A stretch of 64,000 nucleotides of DNA from Avibacterium avium (GTDB lineage: Bacteria > Pseudomonadota > Gammaproteobacteria > Enterobacterales > Pasteurellaceae): the NCBI RefSeq assembly GCF_900454535.1, contig NZ_UGSP01000001.1, positions 228,501-292,500 on the forward strand. Reading direction: 5' to 3'. The position numbers and the translations under genes were made by a program. Shown here one piece after another: positions 6,244-22,484 of the stretch. The first letter of the stretch is position 1. Each line of letters begins with the position of its first letter. The notes below the pieces were generated by a model, which searched no databases, was not told where the DNA came from, and worked only from the letters and a program-made list of their open reading frames with translations.

Positions 6244-6257
6244 TGGCGAACGTGGGC
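6244..6257. other. Distal attachment site core (att)
   Basis: TGGCGAACGTGGGC, identical to the last 14 bases of tRNA-Arg (CCA end, acceptor stem and the edge of the T stem) at 17191-17204. It marks the element end farthest from the integrase. Chromosomal sequence after def lies to its left. Confidence 0.85.
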
Positions 6258-6322
6258 AACTCCATTTTTTAGCGCTAATTCTTTGAATTTTATATCTATT
6301 TTATTTTTTCTTGTTTGTTGCA

Positions 6323-6345
6323 GGGATCTAAACAGGGATCTAAAA
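6323..6345. repeat. Putative integrase arm-type site, left
   Basis: A 23-bp stretch holding two copies of GGGATCTAAA separated by three bases. It differs at one base from 17050-17072 near the other end. An inverted half (ATCCCTGC at 6345-6352) pairs with GCAGGGAT at 6320. Paired short direct repeats just inside both att sites are typical of arm-type integrase sites; the role is inferred. Confidence 0.5.
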
Positions 6346-6996: not shown

Positions 6997-8898
6997 TTAT
7001 GCGTTTCTCCATTTTTCTATTGTTTTCTGCTTGTCTTTGAATGTGGCATTTGTGTAGTTGTACCCGCCTTTTAGCTGCTTATTAGTGAATTTGATTTTAT
7101 AGCCAGCGGTTTTAAATGCTTGTTGCATTTCGGCGAGTAAATCTTTTGGCTTTAACCTTGCTTTATCTGTTCGCCCTAAGATGTCGCAAAAAAACAAATA
7201 GCACCAATAAAGACGATCAAAAACAAAAGGGCTTTCAATGCTTGGCATTCCTTTCATACTTCCTAGAATTAAGCCTTTATTGCTGACTTCGGGCAATAAA
7301 TCGAACTCTTCGATAAATTCTAAAATATGATCGTTTTCGGTTTTCATCGCTAAGGCTTCTTTACTCTTTTGCTGTCGTAGTAAGGCTTGTTTAGCTTCTT
7401 CTGGTTGTTTAAATTCATCATAAAGTTTGCGGATTATCCCGCCTAATTCTTGTTGAATTTTCTCAAATAGCTGATCATCTCTTTCGCTATCTTCAACGGC
7501 TTTATAGAATGGAAATAACACGCGTCTTCTTTCCATTCCGCCGCCGTCATTTTTATAAATTGGCAAGGTATTAGAACAGATAGCAATAATTGCGTTTACT
7601 TTACTACTAAATGATTTTTTATTTTTGGGGTTGAAAGAAATATCATCACCGCCAGAAATTGCTTTAATAATTGAAGCATCGCCAATGTAGCGGGATTGAT
7701 CAGGTGAAAATAAAAACGTTTTATTTAAGATAATATCTCGCGCCTTATCGTCTTTTAAAAGCTCTAAATCTATCGCGGTATAATTTCCCTCGCCACTAAT
7801 TAACTTTGCTACTTCTAGAAATGTACTTTTACCGCTTCCCGCTTCGCCTATTAATTCTAAGGTTAATTGCCAGTCATAACGATTATTTAAAATCATATAA
7901 AGAGCAGCTAATAAAGATTTTTTCCGCTCAATACTGTCATAGCTGATAAAATTGATCCATTTATCAAAATTAGGCGTAGGGGTTTGCGTTTCCAAATAAT
8001 CGCAGGGGTTAACGCCTGTTAAATAGTAGTCTTTACTATGTGGCATAAATTGCAACGTATTTTTATTTAGTACGCCATTTTTAAAAGCTAAGAGTTTCAC
8101 ATCAGTTTGCATAAATAGCGGTAAATCTACATTAAGGCATTTGATAATATTGTTTAAACTCTCAACGCTTCCGTATTTTGTGCCGTATTCCTCAAAAAAC
8201 TGCTTAATTTGACGTTGTAATTCATTTTCTTGGATTATTTCCCAAATAATACCGTTGTAACGGTAAATTATCCCTTGATCCGCGTGATAAGCTAAGGGAA
8301 TTTTTAGCCATTTGTAAAAATATTCTGCTTTTTCAGCTGGGCTAAGTTTTTTCAGGGTTTCCGCGTCAAGCTCAATTAATTCAGGTGTTGCCGCTTCTAG
8401 GCTTGCTTCATTGTTACGAATGCGGGAAATATAGCCGCTTAAATCTTCTAAAAGCTCGCCAATATTGTTTCTTAACGTTAAATGCTGAATAGCTGTTGTT
8501 TTAGTTAAATGCGTGCATAAATCTGTTAGAACTTGCTGATTTTCTCTAATTGTGATGCCGTCAACACTTGTTTTAACTTTAAAAAACTCATCTGTATCAA
8601 TAATGCTTGCAACTTGATGTTCTAACGGCAAAATATCCAGCTTATAAAGTTCTGATAGATTTGTATTGTCTAAAATAATTGGAATTTCTTCATAACGTTT
8701 AGCATTATCCGCATCAGTTAAATCTGCTAGCATTTTCCAGCCTGTGCCAAGCCCATTTGTTTTTAAATCTTTAGGATCTGAACGATAAAAATTCCAAACA
8801 TTATCACCGATTAAAATAAATATTTCTTTTTGGCTATTGGGAGTAGTTTTCAATAATGCCCCTAAGTTAGGGGCTTTTTTTCTCTTTCCGTTCATCAT
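6997..8898 (-). CDS. P4/D5-type replicative helicase-primase of the satellite
   Basis: A 633-residue protein whose C-terminal half is a superfamily 3-like helicase of the P4 alpha / D5 (DUF5906-like) type. It has Walker A GEAGSGKST (about residue 350), a Walker B-like segment (TFLFSPDQS, about 388), the motif SGGDDISFNPKNKKSF, and the conserved sensor stretch IAICSNTLPI. The N-terminal 300 residues show no zinc finger or TOPRIM signature that I can see, so primase activity is uncertain. It is last in the leftward operon, overlapping the upstream small gene by four bases (ATGA), and stops just before the iteron block it probably binds. The final 60 residues are basic and may bind DNA. Confidence 0.85.
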   Translation of the reverse strand: MMNGKRKKAPNLGALLKTTPNSQKEIFILIGDNVWNFYRSDPKDLKTNGLGTGWKMLADLTDADNAKRYEEIPIILDNTNLSELYKLDILPLEHQVASIIDTDEFFKVKTSVDGITIRENQQVLTDLCTHLTKTTAIQHLTLRNNIGELLEDLSGYISRIRNNEASLEAATPELIELDAETLKKLSPAEKAEYFYKWLKIPLAYHADQGIIYRYNGIIWEIIQENELQRQIKQFFEEYGTKYGSVESLNNIIKCLNVDLPLFMQTDVKLLAFKNGVLNKNTLQFMPHSKDYYLTGVNPCDYLETQTPTPNFDKWINFISYDSIERKKSLLAALYMILNNRYDWQLTLELIGEAGSGKSTFLEVAKLISGEGNYTAIDLELLKDDKARDIILNKTFLFSPDQSRYIGDASIIKAISGGDDISFNPKNKKSFSSKVNAIIAICSNTLPIYKNDGGGMERRRVLFPFYKAVEDSERDDQLFEKIQQELGGIIRKLYDEFKQPEEAKQALLRQQKSKEALAMKTENDHILEFIEEFDLLPEVSNKGLILGSMKGMPSIESPFVFDRLYWCYLFFCDILGRTDKARLKPKDLLAEMQQAFKTAGYKIKFTNKQLKGGYNYTNATFKDKQKTIEKWRNA

Positions 8899-9146: not shown

Positions 9147-9499
9147 TCTAGCCCCCTATTTTGGCTAATTTGAGTGGGTAGGCCGTTGATAATGGCTTGC
9201 AATGAATGCGTTACGCCGCGCAAATTCCCATTATGTAAATACACTTTAGCGGCATTGAAGAAGTGTTCTACAAAGTGAACGCCTAGTTGGGCTTGCTCAT
9301 CTGTTAATATCTCATCGATATAAAGCCTTGCTTCTGTATTTTGTGCATAAGTTGGGATATATGCCGTTAATTCCACGCTTTTTAAGCAATGTTTTGCCTC
9401 TTCTAACTGGTTAGCTTTTAGCGCTTTCTTTGTTTCTGCGAGAAAGTGTTCAATGATTTTTACTTTTTCTGTAAGGTTTTTTGGTGTGAGATTACGCAT
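9143..9499 (-). CDS. Small satellite operon protein, function unknown
   Basis: 118 residues from the ATG at 9499 (MRNLTPKNLTEKVKIIEHF). That start is preceded by an A/G-rich ribosome site, AAGGGGGGG, and overlaps the end of the Ash/Icd-like gene by eight bases; the in-frame start 24 bases earlier has no such site. The protein is predicted mostly helical, with two similar-looking helical segments (AEEAKHCLKS-type and NLRGVTHSLQ-type), which may mean an internal helical repeat. Its stop overlaps the next start. No family is recognised. Confidence 0.7.
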   Translation of the reverse strand: MRNLTPKNLTEKVKIIEHFLAETKKALKANQLEEAKHCLKSVELTAYIPTYAQNTEARLYIDEILTDEQAQLGVHFVEHFFNAAKVYLHNGNLRGVTHSLQAIINGLPTQISQNRGLE

Positions 9500-10046
9500 A
9501 GCGCCCCCCCTTAATGCGGGCAAAACAAATCGCCTCTTGTGGGGTGAGGTTTAGGAATTGGCGCGCGTGCGCTTCGCTTTTGGCATAGGTTGAAACGTGT
9601 AGGCGAGAGCCGACTAATTGGAATTTGTAGATCATTGCTGATAGTCCTATAGTAAATTTTTCAAAGACTACCGCTAGACTTCTCACGGTCGGGCGGTAGA
9701 ACGTAACAGGGTGAGAAACTGCCCCTACAGGATAAGCAGCCACGCTTAAAGCGTGCCTGTTACGCTCTACCATTGATGAACACGCCTTAAATTGGCGTTC
9801 TTTAGGTGTGCGAAAATTACGAACAAAAAAAGCACGGGTTGGCGTGCTGTTCGCCTGCAGTAAATTATTCAGCTTCTCACGGCTGGCTTTCGATTTTGCG
9901 AAAGCGGGGAAAGCATAATTTGAAGCTTGGTCATTTGTCAATAAATATGCGTGAATAATTGAAAATAAGTTGTTATTTTTTCTTTTTAGTGTAATATCCC
10001 ACATTAAGTTATGGTTATTTTTAATCGTAATGAAACAATCCTTCAT
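9492..10046 (-). CDS. Ash/Icd-like phage protein
   Basis: 184 residues. The centre and C-terminus carry the pattern CSSMVERNRH ... FYRPTVRSLAVVFEKFT ... MIYKFQLVGSRLH. This is typical of proteins annotated as Ash family or 'host cell division inhibitor Icd-like' in prophages and P4-type satellites. The start at 10046 has a good AAGGA site eight bases upstream. Residues about 60-130 are encoded by a strongly structured nucleotide segment (9668-9764), so selection there may act on RNA as well as protein. In P4 the equivalent leader region produces the CI immunity RNA and early control proteins. The exact function here is unknown. Confidence 0.6.
   Translation of the reverse strand: MKDCFITIKNNHNLMWDITLKRKNNNLFSIIHAYLLTNDQASNYAFPAFAKSKASREKLNNLLQANSTPTRAFFVRNFRTPKERQFKACSSMVERNRHALSVAAYPVGAVSHPVTFYRPTVRSLAVVFEKFTIGLSAMIYKFQLVGSRLHVSTYAKSEAHARQFLNLTPQEAICFARIKGGRYA
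9668..9764 (-). ncRNA. Candidate structured RNA (P4 CI-like immunity RNA)
   Basis: Three perfect stems nest or abut within 97 bases. CGTAACAGG (9702) pairs with CCTGTTACG (9756). Inside it, CACGCTT (9741) pairs with AAGCGTG (9749). Beside them, CTACCGC (9668) pairs with GCGGTAG (9693). The segment lies inside the Ash/Icd-like reading frame. P4 regulates its leftward operon through a short structured CI RNA in the same genetic position. That this is such an RNA is inference from position and pairing. Confidence 0.4.
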
Positions 10047-10139: not shown

Positions 10140-10349
10140 TCATTTGGGATCTTGTTGCCATTTATGGCTGGGTGTAACCGGTTTAAATACGCCTTTTTTA
10201 ATGTCGCTTAATTGGGCGGTGATTGTGCCTTTAATATCGCATTCCACGCAGTAAACAAGGGCTTGTGTTACGCACGCGCTAGGGCGTTCTGATGTGCGGA
10301 TATTTAATGCTTTTCCACATTCTGGGCATTGAATTTTTAAACCTTTCAT
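10140..10349 (-). CDS. Ogr/Delta-like zinc-binding regulator
   Basis: 69 residues from the ATG at 10349 (MKGLKIQCPECGKALNIRT), which overlaps the preceding stop as ATGA; the longer in-frame start is not needed. Two cysteine pairs (CPEC near residue 8 and CVEC near 35) and the stretch SERPSACVTQALVYCVEC match the Ogr/Delta zinc-finger activators that switch on P2 late promoters. In a satellite such a protein lets the element drive helper late genes or its own capsid gene. Promoter targets are not visible with certainty. Confidence 0.75.
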   Translation of the reverse strand: MKGLKIQCPECGKALNIRTSERPSACVTQALVYCVECDIKGTITAQLSDIKKGVFKPVTPSHKWQQDPK

Positions 10350-10570
10350 TTTTTCCCTGCCATTTCTTGCTTGCACATTTCAATTAATTGCTTTTTCTGT
10401 TCCGTGGTGAAGCCATTCATTAATTTGAAAAGGTGGGCTCTGAAAGATGCTGGATTTTTTAGCGTATCCTCTCTTTGAATATCCATATAAAGAAAAAACA
10501 TTACAATTAATTGTTCTTCCATTCCCAAATGAATAAATGCGCGAATAAATTCGATTTGTTCTTTTTTCAT
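10346..10570 (-). CDS. Small satellite protein, function unknown
   Basis: 74 residues from the ATG at 10570 (MKKEQIEFIRAFIHLG), chosen because AAGGAAA lies ten bases upstream and the ATG overlaps the alpA stop (ATGA). The longer frame would sit within alpA. The sequence is helical and Met/Phe-rich (EEQLIVMFFLYMDIQ), ending in a Lys-rich tail. It is coupled to AlpA before and the Ogr-like protein after. I recognise no family. Confidence 0.65.
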   Translation of the reverse strand: MKKEQIEFIRAFIHLGMEEQLIVMFFLYMDIQREDTLKNPASFRAHLFKLMNGFTTEQKKQLIEMCKQEMAGKK

Positions 10571-10752
10571 TGCGGTGTTTCCTTGTTTGGGTTGTTGTGA
10601 TCTAACCACGCTTGCACGTCTTCTAATTGCCATAAGCTACGTTTACCAATTTTGATCGGCTTTGGAAAATCGCCTGATTTGACGAGATGATAGATTTTTG
10701 TTCTGCCGCCGATTTTCATTGCTTGTAATTCTTTTAAGGTTAAAAGCGTCAT
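10567..10752 (-). CDS. AlpA-family transcriptional regulator (first copy)
   Basis: 61-residue winged-helix DNA-binding protein of the AlpA / excisionase type: MTLLTLKELQAMKIGGRTKIYHLVKSG, then DFPKPIKIGKRSLWQLEDVQAWL, the standard helix-turn-helix plus wing. Such proteins control integrase, excision and the early operon in P4-like satellites. An AAAGGAG site precedes the start. It heads the run of overlapping genes down to the helicase, and a perfect 9-bp hairpin separates it from the capsid gene upstream. Confidence 0.85.
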   Translation of the reverse strand: MTLLTLKELQAMKIGGRTKIYHLVKSGDFPKPIKIGKRSLWQLEDVQAWLDHNNPNKETPQ

Positions 10753-10804: not shown

Positions 10805-11794
10805 TTAGCCTAAAATCACCATTGCAGGATCAACCGCTGCCATTAAGCCCAAATCTTCCACAACATAGCCTTCAAAGCGCCAATAGCTCACGACTTCCCG
10901 CTTTCTTTCGTCATCTTGTCGGATTGAATAGCGCCCACTGCGGTTATGCGTGTAAAGACTTAAATTCTGTAATGTCGTGACTACTGCGCCATAAAGTGGA
11001 AACTGTGGCGGGGTGAGGGTTTTCATTCCGCCGAATTGATTAGTGATATAGTGATTTTGCAAACCTACTTTATCCTGCTCTGCTGGGGTTGCGCTGGTGA
11101 TCGGCTGTTCTTCCCGTGCCAATAACCCAGCACCCACTAAAAAGACAAGATCGTTGCGGTTTCTGTGGTGTTCATCTAATTGATTTCTTAGGGCAATGGC
11201 TAAGGCATCTAAGCTGGCATAATCAGCATTTTCACCAAAGATTTTTAGTTTGCCGTTTTTGCCCGTGGCTTTCACATTTTCGGGCTTTTGCTCGGCAAGC
11301 AAAGCTAGCCAGCCTTTATTCACGTCAGAAAGATCAACGGCTGCCGTATTTTGCGCAACGCTTTTACCCGCCCAGCCGATTTGCATAATATTGGCCGCGA
11401 TTTGATCTAAAACAAATTCATCAATCAACTGATCAAATTTTTCTGGGTAAAGGTTGAAAAGATCTAGCATTCCCCATTTCAATGTAATGCCGCTATCTGT
11501 TTCATACACTTGATAGCCATCTTCGTGATCAGATTGTTCAATGATATGGCGTTCTAGGTATTGTCGCCCTGTGATATTAGGCTTGAGAGGCCCGAAAATT
11601 TTACGTCCTTGCTCATTATGAACGGGGATTGCGTTAATTGCTTTGAGGAAATCAGAACGCTGGGTAATTTTTTCAAGCATTGCTTGAACTTCGTATTTCT
11701 CTAGCGAGAAAGCGTCTTTATTGTACTGATCTTCGGCATTAAACTGCTTTGCCTTGTTTTTTCTGTATTGGTGAAGTGCGGTTAAAAAATCCAT
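10805..11794 (-). CDS. P2-type major capsid protein (gpN-like) carried by the satellite
   Basis: 329 residues from the ATG at 11794, chosen for the AGGAG site nine bases upstream; the frame is open ten codons further without a site. By eye it aligns with P2 gpN over most of its length: RSDFLKAINAIPV against the SSDFLTRINIVPV segment, NKGWLALL against VGWLQKY, the nearly invariant DYASLDALAIA, LVFLVGAGLLA, and a C-terminal block NLSLYTHNRSGRYSI ... GYVVEDLGLMAAVDP. P2 gpN is 357 residues; the N-terminal scaffold-contact region is shorter here. P4 encodes no capsid protein and remodels the helper shell with Sid, so a lone capsid gene is unusual. No scaffold/protease or portal gene is present. 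Confidence 0.85.
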   Translation of the reverse strand: MDFLTALHQYRKNKAKQFNAEDQYNKDAFSLEKYEVQAMLEKITQRSDFLKAINAIPVHNEQGRKIFGPLKPNITGRQYLERHIIEQSDHEDGYQVYETDSGITLKWGMLDLFNLYPEKFDQLIDEFVLDQIAANIMQIGWAGKSVAQNTAAVDLSDVNKGWLALLAEQKPENVKATGKNGKLKIFGENADYASLDALAIALRNQLDEHHRNRNDLVFLVGAGLLAREEQPITSATPAEQDKVGLQNHYITNQFGGMKTLTPPQFPLYGAVVTTLQNLSLYTHNRSGRYSIRQDDERKREVVSYWRFEGYVVEDLGLMAAVDPAMVILG

Positions 11795-12012
11795 TGTTTT
11801 TCTCCTATCTGTGGTTGGTGTCAAAAAATCAAAAAAGTGTTTTTTCTACGCTCGCCAAAGCCGAAAACTGCTTTTTTTGTTTGCGGGGGGAATGGTAGGA
11901 GAGAACCAAAAGAAAATAGGGCAATTGCCTTAAAATTTTTTAGAAAAATTTTTATTATGTTGTTTTTGTTCGTTTTTTATTTATTTCTGCCGTTTGCTGT
12001 TTTTTAGGTAAT

Positions 12013-13968: not shown

Positions 13969-14634
13969 TTATTTTTCTGGGGATGGTTGGCTTTTATCAC
14001 TTGAGAAAATAGAAGATATTTTATCTAATCCTTTTTTGGCTGCTCCTTTAAAATCGCCTTGATTTAAACGGCCTGAAAAGCTCGGATCTTTTTCTGTGCC
14101 ATCAATTTTTTCTTCAGCTTTATTTGGTTTAGCCTGTGTAGGCTGTGCTTTAGGGTGGTTTTCTTTTTGTACTATTTTCTTTGGTTTTGGTTTGCGTTTT
14201 TCTTTTTTCTCGCTAACACTATTAGCTTCTTTTAAAATAAAACTTACATTCCAAGCCATAAAGTCATCTTGTTCTACAATATCAACTTCACCGCTGAATT
14301 TTACTTCTCTAATGTTCATTGCTTGCGCAGTTCTTGATGAAACTCTATATTTAATTTGTCCACCTGTTCCATCAGTGCCTTCAGCTAAATTAATTAGATC
14401 AGTTAGCCATTTTTCCTCTCTATATGGAATCATTCCTTTAACGTGGAGTTCTTTCGCCTTTATCCCTTTATCTGCTTTTTTTGTGCTAGATTTACGGCCA
14501 CTCATATCCGCTTCTTCTCGTCTAAAAGTACCAGTGATACTTAAATTATGCATAAGAATGGGTTTGCCATTTAATGCAATTAGAATAGCAGGAGATTTTC
14601 TTTTTGTTTCAGTTTTTTCAGTTGTTTCAGGCAT
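13969..14634 (-). CDS. Possible phage baseplate-like protein
   Basis: 221 residues. About residues 15-140 are beta-rich with the pattern ILIALNGKPILMHNLSITGTF ... RREEADMSGRKSSTKKADKGIKAKELHVKGMIP ... AWNVSFILKEANSVSEKKE. This resembles small proteins annotated as 'baseplate complex protein' in phages and prophages; the match is from memory and not certain. The last 80 residues are Lys/Pro-rich and look disordered. AAAGGAAA precedes the start. A tail-type protein without any tail operon is odd for a satellite. Alternative: a DNA-binding or decoration protein. Confidence 0.5.
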   Translation of the reverse strand: MPETTEKTETKRKSPAILIALNGKPILMHNLSITGTFRREEADMSGRKSSTKKADKGIKAKELHVKGMIPYREEKWLTDLINLAEGTDGTGGQIKYRVSSRTAQAMNIREVKFSGEVDIVEQDDFMAWNVSFILKEANSVSEKKEKRKPKPKKIVQKENHPKAQPTQAKPNKAEEKIDGTEKDPSFSGRLNQGDFKGAAKKGLDKISSIFSSDKSQPSPEK

Positions 14635-14807: not shown

Positions 14808-15005
14808 TTATTTCGCTCTTCTTCTTAACTTTTCTTCAATCCAGCTATCCACTTCACTTTCTAACCATACAACACGATTGCTTGCAATCGTAATACTTTT
14901 AGGGAATTTCCCCCCGCGCATATAGTTATAAATGGTAGATTTGCTAAGGCTTGTTCTTGTAATAACTTCATCTAGTGAAATAAAGCGTTCTTTTTTCTCT
15001 TTCAT
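14808..15005 (-). CDS. AlpA-family transcriptional regulator (second copy)
   Basis: 65 residues with the AlpA winged-helix pattern: FISLDEVITRTSLSKSTIYNYM, then GKFPKSITIASNRVVWLESEVDSWI. TATAGGAGT lies upstream of the start. It diverges from the Ogr-like gene at 15481 across a 475-base repeat-rich region, the likely control region for both. Two different AlpA proteins in one element suggest separate control of integration/excision and of the replication operon. Confidence 0.88.
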   Translation of the reverse strand: MKEKKERFISLDEVITRTSLSKSTIYNYMRGGKFPKSITIASNRVVWLESEVDSWIEEKLRRRAK

Positions 15006-15480
15006 TTATACTCCTATAATTTGAACGGCTATAAATGCTATAGCACTTAATTACATAGATAAATATTAGGGGATTTAATATAGGGATTAAATGAATTTGC
15101 CTTGTGATATTAATTATCACAATAACAAGATGAACAAATTAATTAAAATGGCTAGAAAGTTTCCATTGTGCGGGTAAAATCCTACGTCACGTCATACGGC
15201 ACGAAAAAAGCAATCTCACTCCCGCGTTTTTTGTGTCAAAAATTGCCATTTTTTCAGTTAATTTTCAGTATAGTTTTTATTTAATTTATTGAAAATAAAG
15301 GAAATATACTCAATTTTGTTAGTTTCCTTAACTGAAAAAATTACAGTTAATTTCAGTGAATTTCAGTTAAGAAAAAGCACTAAATAGAATATTAAATAGT
15401 TAATTGATTGAAATTAAAGGAAATTTTTAATTTTACGTGAGTGATATGCCAAAAATTTTTTACAGTTAAGAGATTGAACA
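15006..15480. promoter_or_regulatory. Divergent control region with CAGTTAA repeats
   Basis: 475 bases without a gene. CAGTTAA occurs at 15255, 15344, 15364 and 15463, inverted at 15328, with variants CAGTGAA (15354) and CAGTATA (15266). A second element, TTGAAA(A/T)TAAAGGAAAT, occurs twice, near 15288 and 15409. The spacing of the repeats and the divergent regulator genes suggest operators for AlpA or Ogr-like proteins, or a second replication element. No clear -35/-10 pair is assigned. Confidence 0.5.
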
Positions 15481-15759
15481 ATGCCAAGAGCCTTTAAAAT
15501 TTATTGCACAGCTTGCAAAAGCCGAGCAACAATTACAAGAACAGAAAGACCACTTCAAGGCTTTAGCCGTCTTTATTGTTCTTGCAATAATCCAGAATGC
15601 TTGCATCGTTTTGTAATGAATTTAGAATTTAGCCATACCACAAGAACAAGCCTACTAGATAAAGACGTTTTTATTAACACACTTATAAGCCAATTTTCGC
15701 CAGAAGATAAGGCTAAAATGCTTGCTGCATTACAAAAAGAAACTAGCCCCAATAAATAG
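15481..15759 (+). CDS. Ogr/Delta-like late-transcription activator
   Basis: 92 residues with the Ogr/Delta zinc-finger arrangement: CTAC near residue 9 and CNNPEC near 37, with the typical context KSRATITRTER, LYCSCNNPECLHRFVMNLEFSHTT. P2 Ogr and P4 Delta bind late promoters and recruit RNA polymerase. It is the only plus-strand gene of the element and ends convergently with the integrase, sharing a bidirectional hairpin. With the smaller zinc protein at 10140-10349 the element holds two members of this family. Confidence 0.85.
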   Translation: MPRAFKIYCTACKSRATITRTERPLQGFSRLYCSCNNPECLHRFVMNLEFSHTTRTSLLDKDVFINTLISQFSPEDKAKMLAALQKETSPNK

Positions 15760-15769: not shown

Positions 15770-16978
15770 TTAGGCTTTAATGGCTTCTATTTTACATTTC
15801 TCCACATAATCCCCCCAAGTTTGCATAATCTCAATTCTTGATTTCCACTTTTTCGATTTATCATAAGCTGCCCGAACCTTGCCTTTATTTTCGTGTGAAA
15901 GACATAGTTCAATAGCTTCAGAAGAAAATACATCAAGATCGTGAAGATAGGTACTAGCAATAGAGCGCAAACCGTGGGCGACTAAAAGCCCTTTAAATCC
16001 CATTCGCTTTAGCGCCACATTTGCCGCCTGTGTACTCATATGATTAGTGTAAGGTGCGGTATAGGTTGAGAATACATATTTCCTATTTCCATTATATCGC
16101 CGCATTTGCTCTAAAATATATAAGGCTTGAGTAGATAAAGGAACGCTATGCGGCCGTTTTCCTCCTTTCATTTTTTCAGCAGGAATATGTAGCACTTTAT
16201 TTTTGAAATCAATTTCTGACCATTCAACCCGTACCGCTTCCGCAGAACGCAACATTGTTAATAGCTGCCATTCTATTAAAAGTGCGGTGGGGCGTTGAAT
16301 ATTCGCATTTTGCAATACTTTAAATAAATAAGGTAATTCGCTTGGGGGAATTGTTGGCTGATGCACCGCCTGAATATAATTAAATTCATTATGAATTCCC
16401 CTTAATGGATTTTTAATAATTAATTCTTCATCTTCCGCAAGTTGAAATATCTGATTTAAAGAAACATTAATTTTATAAAGTGTATTAGAATGCTTAAGCG
16501 GACTAAGTGCAGAAAAAATAGATTTTAAGCTCACTTCTTTAATGTTCATCTCTCCAACAACGGGGAATATATAAACTTCAAGCCGCCGAAAAGCCTCTTT
16601 GATAGTTTGCTCTTTTACCTTTCCTTGTTGCAATCGCCGATCTCGCCATTTGATCGCCAACTCCCTTAAAGTCATCATATCATTCTCCAAGCGCTCAAAT
16701 TGTGCATTTTTATAACCTAGCGGATCAATATTCTGCACAAGTAGCGTGCGATATTCCTGCGCAATTTCTCTAGCTTTTGCCAAAGATAAATCAGGGAATG
16801 CCCCTAAACTAACTTTCTTATGCTTCTTAAAGTATTTATAGGCGAAATACCAAATCTTAGCGCCATTAGGCTTTACTCTAATGTAAAGCCCTTGCCCATC
16901 AGATTTAATGTATTCTTTCGCCATAGGCTTTAGATTTTGAAGGGTAGTATTGGTTAAAGGTTTAACAATTTTGCTCAT
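15770..16978 (-). CDS. P4-type tyrosine integrase
   Basis: 402 residues, the usual length of P4-family integrases. The N-terminal arm-binding DUF4102-type domain is clear (LKPMAKEYIKSDGQGLYIRVKPNG, KKVSLGAFPDLSLAKARE), followed by a SAM-like core-binding region. In the catalytic domain the first Arg is in LLTMLRSAEAVRVEW, the HxxR box is AHGLRSIAST, and the second His and Tyr are in LSHENKGKVRAAYDKSKK. The gene points away from the tRNA-Arg it targets, 213 bases from the gene's 3' end, as is standard. It would recombine the 14-bp cores at 6244 and 17191. Confidence 0.93.
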   Translation of the reverse strand: MSKIVKPLTNTTLQNLKPMAKEYIKSDGQGLYIRVKPNGAKIWYFAYKYFKKHKKVSLGAFPDLSLAKAREIAQEYRTLLVQNIDPLGYKNAQFERLENDMMTLRELAIKWRDRRLQQGKVKEQTIKEAFRRLEVYIFPVVGEMNIKEVSLKSIFSALSPLKHSNTLYKINVSLNQIFQLAEDEELIIKNPLRGIHNEFNYIQAVHQPTIPPSELPYLFKVLQNANIQRPTALLIEWQLLTMLRSAEAVRVEWSEIDFKNKVLHIPAEKMKGGKRPHSVPLSTQALYILEQMRRYNGNRKYVFSTYTAPYTNHMSTQAANVALKRMGFKGLLVAHGLRSIASTYLHDLDVFSSEAIELCLSHENKGKVRAAYDKSKKWKSRIEIMQTWGDYVEKCKIEAIKA

Positions 16979-17015: not shown

Positions 17016-17072
17016 TTTTAGATCCCTCGTAAGATTCCCTCTAAGGTGAGGGATCCAAACAGGGATCTAAAA
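17016..17072. repeat. Putative integrase arm-type sites, right
   Basis: TTTTAGATCCC at 17016 (inverted), a degenerate GATTCCCT near 17033, and GGGATCC / GGGATCT copies at 17050 and 17062. The 23-bp block 17050-17072 matches 6323-6345 with one mismatch. Location between integrase start and att core fits arm-type sites. The bases from here to the tRNA hold nothing else except a partial att copy at 17166. Confidence 0.5.
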
Positions 17073-17190: not shown

Positions 17191-17267
17191 TGGCGAACGT
17201 GGGCGGAGTCGAACCGCCGACCTGTCCCTTAGGAGGGGACTGCTCTATCCTGCTAAGCTACACGTTC
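17191..17267 (-). tRNA. tRNA-Arg (anticodon CCT)
   Basis: A 77-base cloverleaf with encoded CCA. Acceptor stem GAACGTG pairs with CACGTTC. The anticodon loop CTCCTAA sits between GTCCC and GGGAC. It is the integration target: its last 14 bases are repeated at 6244. The tRNA itself remains intact because the element carries a matching 3' end. Confidence 0.95.
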
Positions 17268-21689: not shown

Positions 21690-22484
21690 TTAATTCAAGG
21701 ACTGAGTTCTGTATTCCACAGGGCTTAGTCCTTTGAGCTTCACTTGAATACGCTCATTATTGTAGTAATGAATGTACTCGTGAATCACTTTTTCAAGCTG
21801 TTCAAAGGTTTCAAACCGCTTGCCAAAGTAACATTCCGTCTTCAATCGCCCGAAAAAGCTTTCCATCGCACCATTATCAAGGCAATTGCCTTTTCTCGAC
21901 ATACTTTGCGTAATACCGTGTTTTTTCAATATCTCCCGATAACCCATCATTTGATACTGCCACCCTTGGTCGGAATGCAGTATCGGTTTTCCCCCCGCTA
22001 ATCGGTTCACCGCCTGGGTCAACATTCTGGTTATCTGCTCAAAATTCGGACTTCTCGCCACATCATAAGCAATAATTTCGTTATTAAACAAGTCTTTAAT
22101 TGGTGATAAATACACTTTGCCTTCCGCACATTTGAACTCGGTGATATCCGTTACCCACTTCTCATTCGGCATCGTTGCCGTAAAATCCCGTTGCAACAGA
22201 TTATCGGCAATGTGTCCCACTTTGCCTTGGTAAGAACGATATTTTTTCTGCTTACTTTTTCCTTTTAACCCCAAACGTTGCATTATCGCTTGCACCCTTT
22301 TGTGGTTAATAATTAAGTATTTCCTTAATTCCAAGGTAATTCGACGATAACCATAATTTTCGTCATTTTTGCGATAAATTTCCTCTATTTTCTGTGAAAT
22401 CGCTACATTTTTATCCGACTTTGGCTTGAGATGATAAAAGAACGAACTGCGTGCCAATCCGATTAGCCTGAGTAACAATTCCAA
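21690..22484 (-). CDS. IS3-family transposase OrfB (DDE catalytic part)
   Basis: Retroviral-type integrase core. Catalytic residues lie in WVTDITEF (first Asp), [10 protein letters not shown] (second Asp) and [12 protein letters not shown] (Glu). The frame is open upstream of the TTG at 22484, through [19 protein letters not shown], and continues into the end of orfA. A -1 ribosomal shift near the A-rich run at about 22525 (GCAGAAAAAGCC) would therefore give the OrfAB transposase, as in other IS3 elements. The start shown is only the first possible start codon. The C-terminus ends with the usual [16 protein letters not shown]. Confidence 0.9.

Follow-up and report, generated by a model that had tools for sequence, protein, structure and literature searches.

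Lone P2-family capsid genes in P4-like satellites of Pasteurellaceae: a likely origin from helper-type phages and a possible role in setting capsid size

Satellite P4 shrinks the heads of its helper P2 by means of Sid, an external scaffold that binds the helper's capsid protein gpN on its sir loop (residues 183 to 224) and on a second surface of the A-domain (PMC7552001); the P4 record lists no capsid gene. SaPIbov5 differs in that a lone homologue of the helper's major capsid protein, Ccm, enters the helper shell, fills its pentamers, and drives assembly of T=4 capsids, so that size-setting by a lone capsid homologue is already known from cos-type SaPIs (PMC5052747, PMC8569155). Ccm is of HK97 type, belongs to a Gram-positive PICI, and works on a helper capsid with its own scaffold domain. 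Capsid-forming PICIs (cf-PICIs) also carry capsid genes of phage origin, with three capsid radiations reported (PMC11389934), but encode every protein that their small capsids and their packaging require (PMC12409344). Small capsids of a Pasteurella satellite were reported in 2018: PmCI172, a PICI of Pasteurella multocida, forms small-headed particles with contractile tails and carries a major capsid homologue suspected of a role in size-setting, its helper being described as Mu-like (PMC6092414). The available text of a 2025 paper still calls the genes or mechanisms behind Pasteurella small capsids unknown (PMC12409344).

Here we describe a P4-like element of 10,961 bp at tRNA-Arg(cct) of Avibacterium avium, which lies in a window of 64,000 nucleotides, the whole stretch of DNA that was analysed (contig NZ_UGSP01000001.1). 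A 14-bp sequence, that of the tRNA-Arg 3' end, marks both boundaries of the element; it occurs twice in the window, with 0 matches expected by chance. The features of the element are collected in Table 1. A 23- to 25-bp arm-type repeat like that near its two ends is also found near both ends of loci L024, L026, L030, L095, and L096.

Table 1. Features of the satellite element, in window coordinates
Feature	Position	Strand	Basis
Left attachment core TGGCGAACGTGGGC	6244..6257	+	exact repeat, tRNA-Arg 3' end
Integrase arm-type repeat, left copy (inferred role)	6322..6345	+	24-bp repeat, 96% identical
P4-alpha-like helicase (D5_N + DUF5906)	6997..8898	-	PF08706 1.2e-12, PF19263 3.9e-13
Conserved small ORF, 83 aa	8895..9146	-	three Avibacterium relatives, 95-98%
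Conserved small ORF, 126 aa	9143..9523	-	92-98% in three relatives
Ash-family protein	9492..10046	-	PF10554 7.7e-8
C4 antisense RNA	9689..9777	-	Rfam RF01695, 59.3 bits (gathering score 45)
Weak Ogr/Delta-like zinc finger	10140..10376	-	PF04606 7.8e-4, under curated cut-off
Conserved ORF, 95 aa	10346..10633	-	99% in three relatives
AlpA-type regulator 1	10567..10752	-	PF05930 1.1e-7
Lone P2-family major capsid protein (clade A)	10805..11794	-	PF05125 1.2e-73; tree; dN/dS; fold
Satellite ORF, 358 aa	12047..13123	-	matches in L024, L094, L096, L100, L199
Coiled-coil-like satellite ORF, 226 aa	13270..13950	-	85-95% in three Avibacterium relatives; matches in other satellites
HP1 ORF34-like baseplate protein	13969..14634	-	PF25759 HP1_ORF34 1.7e-57
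AlpA-type regulator 2	14808..15005	-	PF05930 1.1e-17
HP1-type cos region (putative packaging site)	~15155..15475	+	aligns with HP1 nt 21-257
Ogr/Delta late-gene activator	15481..15759	+	PF04606 7.8e-10; homologues adjoin portal gene of HP1-type phages
P4-type tyrosine integrase	15770..16978	-	PF00589, PF13356, PF22022
Integrase arm-type repeat, right copy (inferred role)	17049..17072	+	pairs with left copy
Right attachment core	17191..17204	+	inside tRNA-Arg(cct) 17191-17267 (-)

The likeness to P4 extends to a tyrosine integrase with an arm domain at a tRNA gene, AlpA and Ogr/Delta regulators, a putative helper-type cos, a length about one-third that of the helper type, and the C4 antisense RNA, which is a P4 hallmark and here sits within the Ash ORF on the same strand. 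The integrase relatives in L024 to L026 align with P4 int at 29 to 31%. The D5-type helicase may be of the alpha type: near-identical copies of it in L024 and L026 align with P4 alpha at 31 to 32% over about half its length, Pfam reporting no primase domain. P4 Sid or Psu gave no best hit at E 1e-3 in the fetched satellites, and PF07455, a profile that finds psu but not sid in P4, matched in none of the 140 Pasteurellaceae genomes, in a scan where no control gave a match either. Because sid and psu were not found, we file the element as P4-like in architecture, a sid/psu-free variant, and not as a standard P4 member. The integrase, AlpA, Ogr/Delta, Ash, and helicase genes had all been listed in a first-pass annotation of this DNA, which missed the ORF34-like baseplate gene and did not include the C4 antisense RNA or the cos-like region. 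PADLOC gave a single weak match, to the 226-aa ORF. The motif TGT-N12-ACA, the P2 Ogr site, was absent from the 300 bases upstream of the satellite capsids and likewise of four phage capsids; phage late promoters may lie further upstream. Elsewhere in the window, an ORF at 21690 to 22484 resembles an IS3-type transposase, as judged by eye.

The central claim of the first-pass annotation, that a gpN-like capsid stands in a P4-like element without terminase, portal, or scaffold, is borne out. The capsid ORF encodes 329 aa from its ATG, or 339 aa from an upstream TTG at 11824, and besides the Pfam family Phage_cap_P2 it matches PHROG 70 at 1.3e-72; it is an intact, complete P2-family major capsid protein. 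An AlphaFold2 model, built on an alignment of 52 of 97 homologues plus the window capsid, is confident (pLDDT 88) except at residues 235 to 242, which fall by alignment position inside the 241-270 stretch considered below. Among PDB entries it matches gpN of P2 best, as seen in the P4 procapsid (7jw1, E 3.5e-22), in line with the comparison to gpN that had been suggested. Pfam matched no terminase, portal, scaffold, sheath, or tube gene among the 14 ORFs of the element. The full capsid and packaging gene set of a cf-PICI was likewise absent, and we rejected that identity since no further head or packaging gene was matched among these 14 ORFs. The host genome contains no other P2-family capsid, so by that test no P2- or HP1-type phage is resident.

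Across 140 Pasteurellaceae genomes, PF05125 matched at 80 places in 61 genomes (one of the 80 rows being a second piece of L109), and the surroundings of all 80 were gene-mapped by blastp and classified from those maps. Phage head operons account for 47, among them L081, which keeps only the genes downstream of the capsid. Another 26 are lone capsids in satellites, spread over 25 genomes and 15 of 43 genera. The remainder comprise L105, unclassified on a short contig, two phages with a broken capsid gene (L112 and L114), and three fragments (L110, L111, and L113). In L105 (607 to 3120, genome G150) the capsid domain lies within an 837-aa ORF, which is either a real fusion or an assembly join. 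The general gene order at the lone-capsid loci is integrase, in some cases Ogr, AlpA, capsid, AlpA, Ogr-like, Ash, and helicase, with single genes unmatched in some and with four loci (L031, L093, L097, and L108) truncated where the retrieved stretch or the contig ends. The same general gene order, looked for across Pasteurellaceae, is present in 25 of the 140 genomes with the capsid still alone, and in none of the 26 loci was the rest of a head operon present.

Full-length satellite capsid copies have no internal stops, and their dN/dS values (NG86) are far below 1: 0.07 to 0.17 among four Avibacterium copies, 0.08 to 0.34 in a second clade A group, and 0.11 to 0.17 and 0.07 to 0.15 in two clade B groups, the latter with dS above 2. 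Phage capsid pairs gave 0.04 to 0.12 (11 of 16 pairs computable). The satellite capsids are thus under purifying selection and selectively maintained, and the element's status as a satellite, with the capsid as one of its kept genes, stands. Neither of the two findings that the first-pass annotation had named as refuting, a full head and tail operon in close relatives or inactivated capsid genes across strains, came to light. The locus could alternatively be a decaying P2/HP1-type prophage that has lost its other head genes, as the HP1-like ORF34 in the same element and the capsid fragments adjoining integrases in two other genomes (L110 and L111) might suggest. We regard this as extremely improbable, given that the satellite capsids form clades of their own, have dN/dS well under 1, and keep the same general gene order in 15 genera. 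Gene maps of relatives, capsid tree, and dN/dS together led us to reject it; the portal, terminase, scaffold, capsid, and tail operons of a P2/HP1-like prophage were matched neither in the window element nor in its mapped relatives, whose capsids are lone.

The capsid is not universal among related elements. Of 21 integrases at least 50% identical to that of the window, 16 have a capsid in the same element, two are split between contigs, and three are capsid-free. One of these three, L199 (G092), is an otherwise complete clade-A-like satellite without a capsid; between 4700 and 6750 it has the usual neighbours and, at the expected capsid position, a short stretch free of any capsid ORF. Other P4-like elements in Pasteurellaceae without a capsid are L203, L204, and L207. 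The tRNA-Arg neighbourhood was located in three congeners that lack this satellite, with no match to the window integrase in G002 and G004 and a 36% match in G006. At the congener locus L213 the downstream neighbour of the tRNA-Arg site differs from that in the window, and L213 therefore does not establish an empty site.

Outside the family, scans of viral contigs with the window capsid, the P. multocida protein P0032, and the clade B capsid L103 returned no relatives. Among plasmid records, 71 had a capsid match, and two Pseudomonas ones, among the 20 listed, were taken further. A Pseudomonas element, pHS87b or phage vB_Pae_U10 (U10), resembles the Avibacterium element in having an integrase, AlpA-like regulators, a primase/helicase, Ogr, and a lone P2-family capsid, but is independent of it. 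The published account of pHS87b presents it as an integrative plasmid and mentions a capsid protein, and the word "satellite" does not occur in the available text of that report (PMC4739549). After the lone capsid of the Pseudomonas satellite comes a 250-aa protein (L048 9431-10183, L049 9641-10393), called an exonuclease in one record and without a Pfam match above cut-off. As a control, viral contigs whose capsid is related to that of U10 were inspected, the best 80 out of at least 598; 79 had a scaffold or terminase match in the stretch retrieved, and the one without was itself a U10-like satellite.

A maximum-likelihood tree was computed from 80 capsids, 27 from satellites and 53 from phages. 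Seven rows had been dropped beforehand (L105; L081, incomplete; L110 to L114, broken or fragmentary), and capsid starts were trimmed to an inner start in L024 to L026, L094, L096, L097, and L106. Clade A, with 11 rows including the window, groups with HP1-type phages; clade B, with 15 rows, nests within P2-type phages; and the U10 capsid adjoins that of phage phi3, with 80% protein identity. The well-supported branches need at least three changes between phage and satellite, and none of 200 bootstrap trees had just one. A constraint that unites all satellite capsids was rejected (p-AU 5.5e-61), as was one uniting the 26 from Pasteurellaceae (p-AU 9.5e-32); long branches are present, and the warning about them applies to the AU test too. 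These results indicate that satellite capsids arose at least three times, the Pseudomonas one being the third origin. The three changes could instead represent fewer gains combined with losses, though the satellite clades nest apart among phage rows. In a wider quick tree, which carries its own long-branch warning, the P. multocida proteins P0032 and P0097 fall in clade A.

We then compared packaging sites. The cos-like region of the window, aligned with HP1, scored 63 against a maximum of 35 in 10 plain letter shuffles per strand, and 73 with a lighter gap cost, so that the element appears by homology to carry a helper-type cos. With the 300 bases to the right of the HP1 cos (annotated cosL in its record) as query, nine of the 11 clade A elements scored 64 to 116, the window 73; the other two, L093 and L097, lie on contigs that end short of the site, and L201 and L202, which probably hold their integrase sides, scored 99 and 86. 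By the same query the 15 clade B elements gave 27 to 46 and U10 gave 21. Among the HP1 and phi3/pHS87b comparisons, shuffle controls accompany the score of 63. In an alignment of the window, HP1, CFP3, and 10 related elements, the cos core of HP1 is nearly unchanged in CFP3 and most clade A satellites, while the Avibacterium copies, including that of the window, are more diverged. Next to L210, the HP1-like prophage of the Avibacterium genome G006, no HP1 cos was found; with a split sheath gene and no match to any later tail gene, this prophage may be decayed.

For clade B we used as queries up to 450 bases downstream of the portal gene in 32 P2-type phages, the place of the cos in P2. Fourteen of the 15 clade B elements scored 78 to 187, with L099 at only 48; the 11 clade A elements scored 44 to 52 and shuffles (three plain letter shuffles for the best of the 32 queries) 25 to 41. 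The shared stretch lies between AlpA and the integrase in all 15, crossed only by short unassigned ORFs, and is by its position a putative cos. P2's own ends matched none of five of these P2-type phages (scores 21 to 30). In the third lineage, the capsid genes of phi3 and pHS87b are 81% identical over 941 bp. The two also have in common a non-coding stretch of 163 bp, again a putative cos, and two pieces of 51 to 56 bp near the portal and ogr genes. Genome G013 has tandem satellites on its contig 5, one (of L030 and L031) with a clade A capsid and HP1-type cos and the other with a clade B capsid and P2-type putative cos.

Capsid lineage therefore agrees with the lineage of the cos or putative cos in all three cases, and we infer that the donor of the capsid is the helper phage. 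Resident phages are weaker evidence on helper identity than packaging sites: HP1-type head operons are co-resident with 3 of 11 clade A satellites and P2-type ones with 2, and P2-type head operons are co-resident with 6 of 15 clade B satellites and HP1-type ones with 2. It might be argued that the capsid gene is carried to serve host immunity or to exclude superinfecting phages, with no part in satellite transfer, as P4-like satellites carry anti-phage hotspots (PMC9122126). At least three acquisitions from lineages that agree with the packaging site speak against such a role, as does the lack of a sid or psu hit, which leaves the size-setting role unfilled, and we consider it very unlikely.

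The data are best accounted for if the capsid of the window was taken from the HP1-type phages that would package the satellite, and if its protein co-assembles with the head proteins of the helper into shells large enough for the satellite and too small for the helper genome. This we think probable, the small shells being a prediction. The window element is 0.339 the length of HP1, close to the ratios of P4 to P2 (0.346) and of pHS87b to phi3 (0.344), and 19 of 25 related loci measure ~10.1 to 12.4 kb (rough values, in part based on short repeats), a range in keeping with a small shell that limits size. The same lengths weigh on the alternative that the satellite capsid fully replaces that of the helper in shells of unchanged size, for example to evade capsid-sensing host defences or anti-satellite changes in the helper. 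The full-length protein with a predicted complete fold would suit such a replacement, as would the U10 protein with its 80% identity to the phi3 capsid and equal region lengths, but Ccm, the closest tested case, cannot on its own replace the helper capsid (PMC5052747). Same-size replacement thus seems quite unlikely.

Where the satellite capsids differ from those of phages bears on how they might act. The phage groups in this comparison comprised all but L033 and phi3. In clade B the sir loop is 24 to 29 residues long versus 36 to 44 in P2-type phages, with ranges that do not overlap, and residues 194 to 199 are deleted. Clade A keeps the phage length (35 to 36 versus 34 to 37 residues) and the U10 and phi3 capsids show no indel in the regions compared (dN/dS 0.21), so that the argument from the sir loop rests on clade B. 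Residues 241 to 258 are among the three windows with the largest extra divergence in both clades; the stretch most changed in clade A is 241 to 270 in the A-domain, and its only consistent indel is near 252. In PMC7552001 the alpha6-alpha6' loop is ordered under Sid, but the available text gives no residue numbers for it that would make 241 to 270 a Sid contact, and residues 254 to 260 are unmodelled there. Other regions are strongly changed as well, including residues 31 to 48, just after the cleaved N-arm, which form the most changed window in clade B.

Such changes in the A-domain and N-terminal region would also make a plausible dominant-negative subunit, and it is conceivable that the satellite capsid enters helper shells only to stall assembly and cut helper yield, the satellite travelling in shells of normal size, possibly in concatemeric form. 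A head of helper size would be about filled by three satellite lengths, and Ccm expressed alone lowers helper titre 10^3- to 10^4-fold (PMC5052747). Set against this, U10 keeps all 32 positions that are near-invariant in phages and 24 of them are kept in 10 or more of the 11 clade A rows, but only 15 in 14 or more of the 15 clade B rows. Moreover, helper-type packaging sites are kept in three lineages, and packaging of the satellite itself would suffer from a pure poison too. We judge this unlikely, and the precedent of Ccm, the length ratios of about one-third, and the changes in the capsid therefore lead us to prefer redirection of size by a built-in capsid mimic.

Under size redirection, an HP1-type phage would infect or be induced, and the satellite's Ogr/Delta protein would help to switch on late genes. 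The portal, scaffold/protease, terminase, and tails of the helper would be used, because the satellite has none of its own. The satellite capsid would then enter the growing shell and favour a smaller lattice, much as Ccm pentamers do in SaPIbov5, with its changed A-domain as the likely site. Finally, the helper terminase would start from the HP1-type cos to load the DNA of the satellite, while the helper genome, with three times the length, would be excluded. Counting against size redirection are the phage-length sir loop of clade A, the capsid-free elements L199, L203, L204, and L207, the diverged cos core of the window, the weak score of L099, the purely positional basis of the clade B cos, the strong changes elsewhere in the capsid such as at residues 31 to 48, the promoter scan without a hit, and the absence of a resident helper-type capsid gene.

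The ORF34-like gene, a second helper-type structural gene, may serve to modify tails or to steal them. In L025 and L026 it has 52% identity to HP1 orf34, and the gene recurs in clade A satellites (L025 12902-13567, L026 5069-5677, and L096 10045-10710, as well as the window) at two positions, upstream or downstream of the capsid, with no match in L024.

The first-pass annotation had suggested a third satellite strategy. This is too strong, as Ccm is known and PmCI172 is suspected of the same; what we did not find in print is that P4-like satellites use a lone capsid, that it arose in them repeatedly, and that its lineage agrees with that of the packaging site, although this is weak evidence for absence. 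The available text of PMC8628076 contains none of the strings "Pasteurell", "Haemophilus", or "Pseudomonas", and its four capsid passages mention no capsid gene carried by a P4-like element. The open-licence literature likewise yielded no P4-like satellites with capsids in Pasteurellaceae or Haemophilus, nor with their own capsid in Pseudomonas, again weak evidence. The Avibacterium element shares with SaPIbov5 a lone homologue from the capsid family of its presumed helper, and differs in having a P2-family capsid, a P4-like architecture, and a helper type with a separate scaffold/protease, gpO. With PmCI172, compared by description only, it shares the host family and a major capsid homologue, and it differs from cf-PICIs in that its capsid stands alone.

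More tentatively, we propose that P4-like satellites have repeatedly taken their major capsid gene from the same helper that lends them its packaging site, with the A-domain, and in clade B the loop gripped by Sid, remodelled so that their own subunits impose the small lattice, unlike the outside clamp of Sid. This would be the small-capsid gene of Pasteurella satellites such as PmCI172. If so, satellites would control size through a scaffold, outer or inner, or through a mimic of the capsid, and the last route would have evolved at least four times, Ccm included. The Pseudomonas element, with phi3 as a close living phage, offers a testable pair, and the pairing of capsid and packaging-site lineages would provide a way to name a satellite's likely helper from sequence. 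For the Pasteurellaceae, the lone capsid, present in 25 of 140 genomes, is a concrete candidate gene for the small capsids of Pasteurella.
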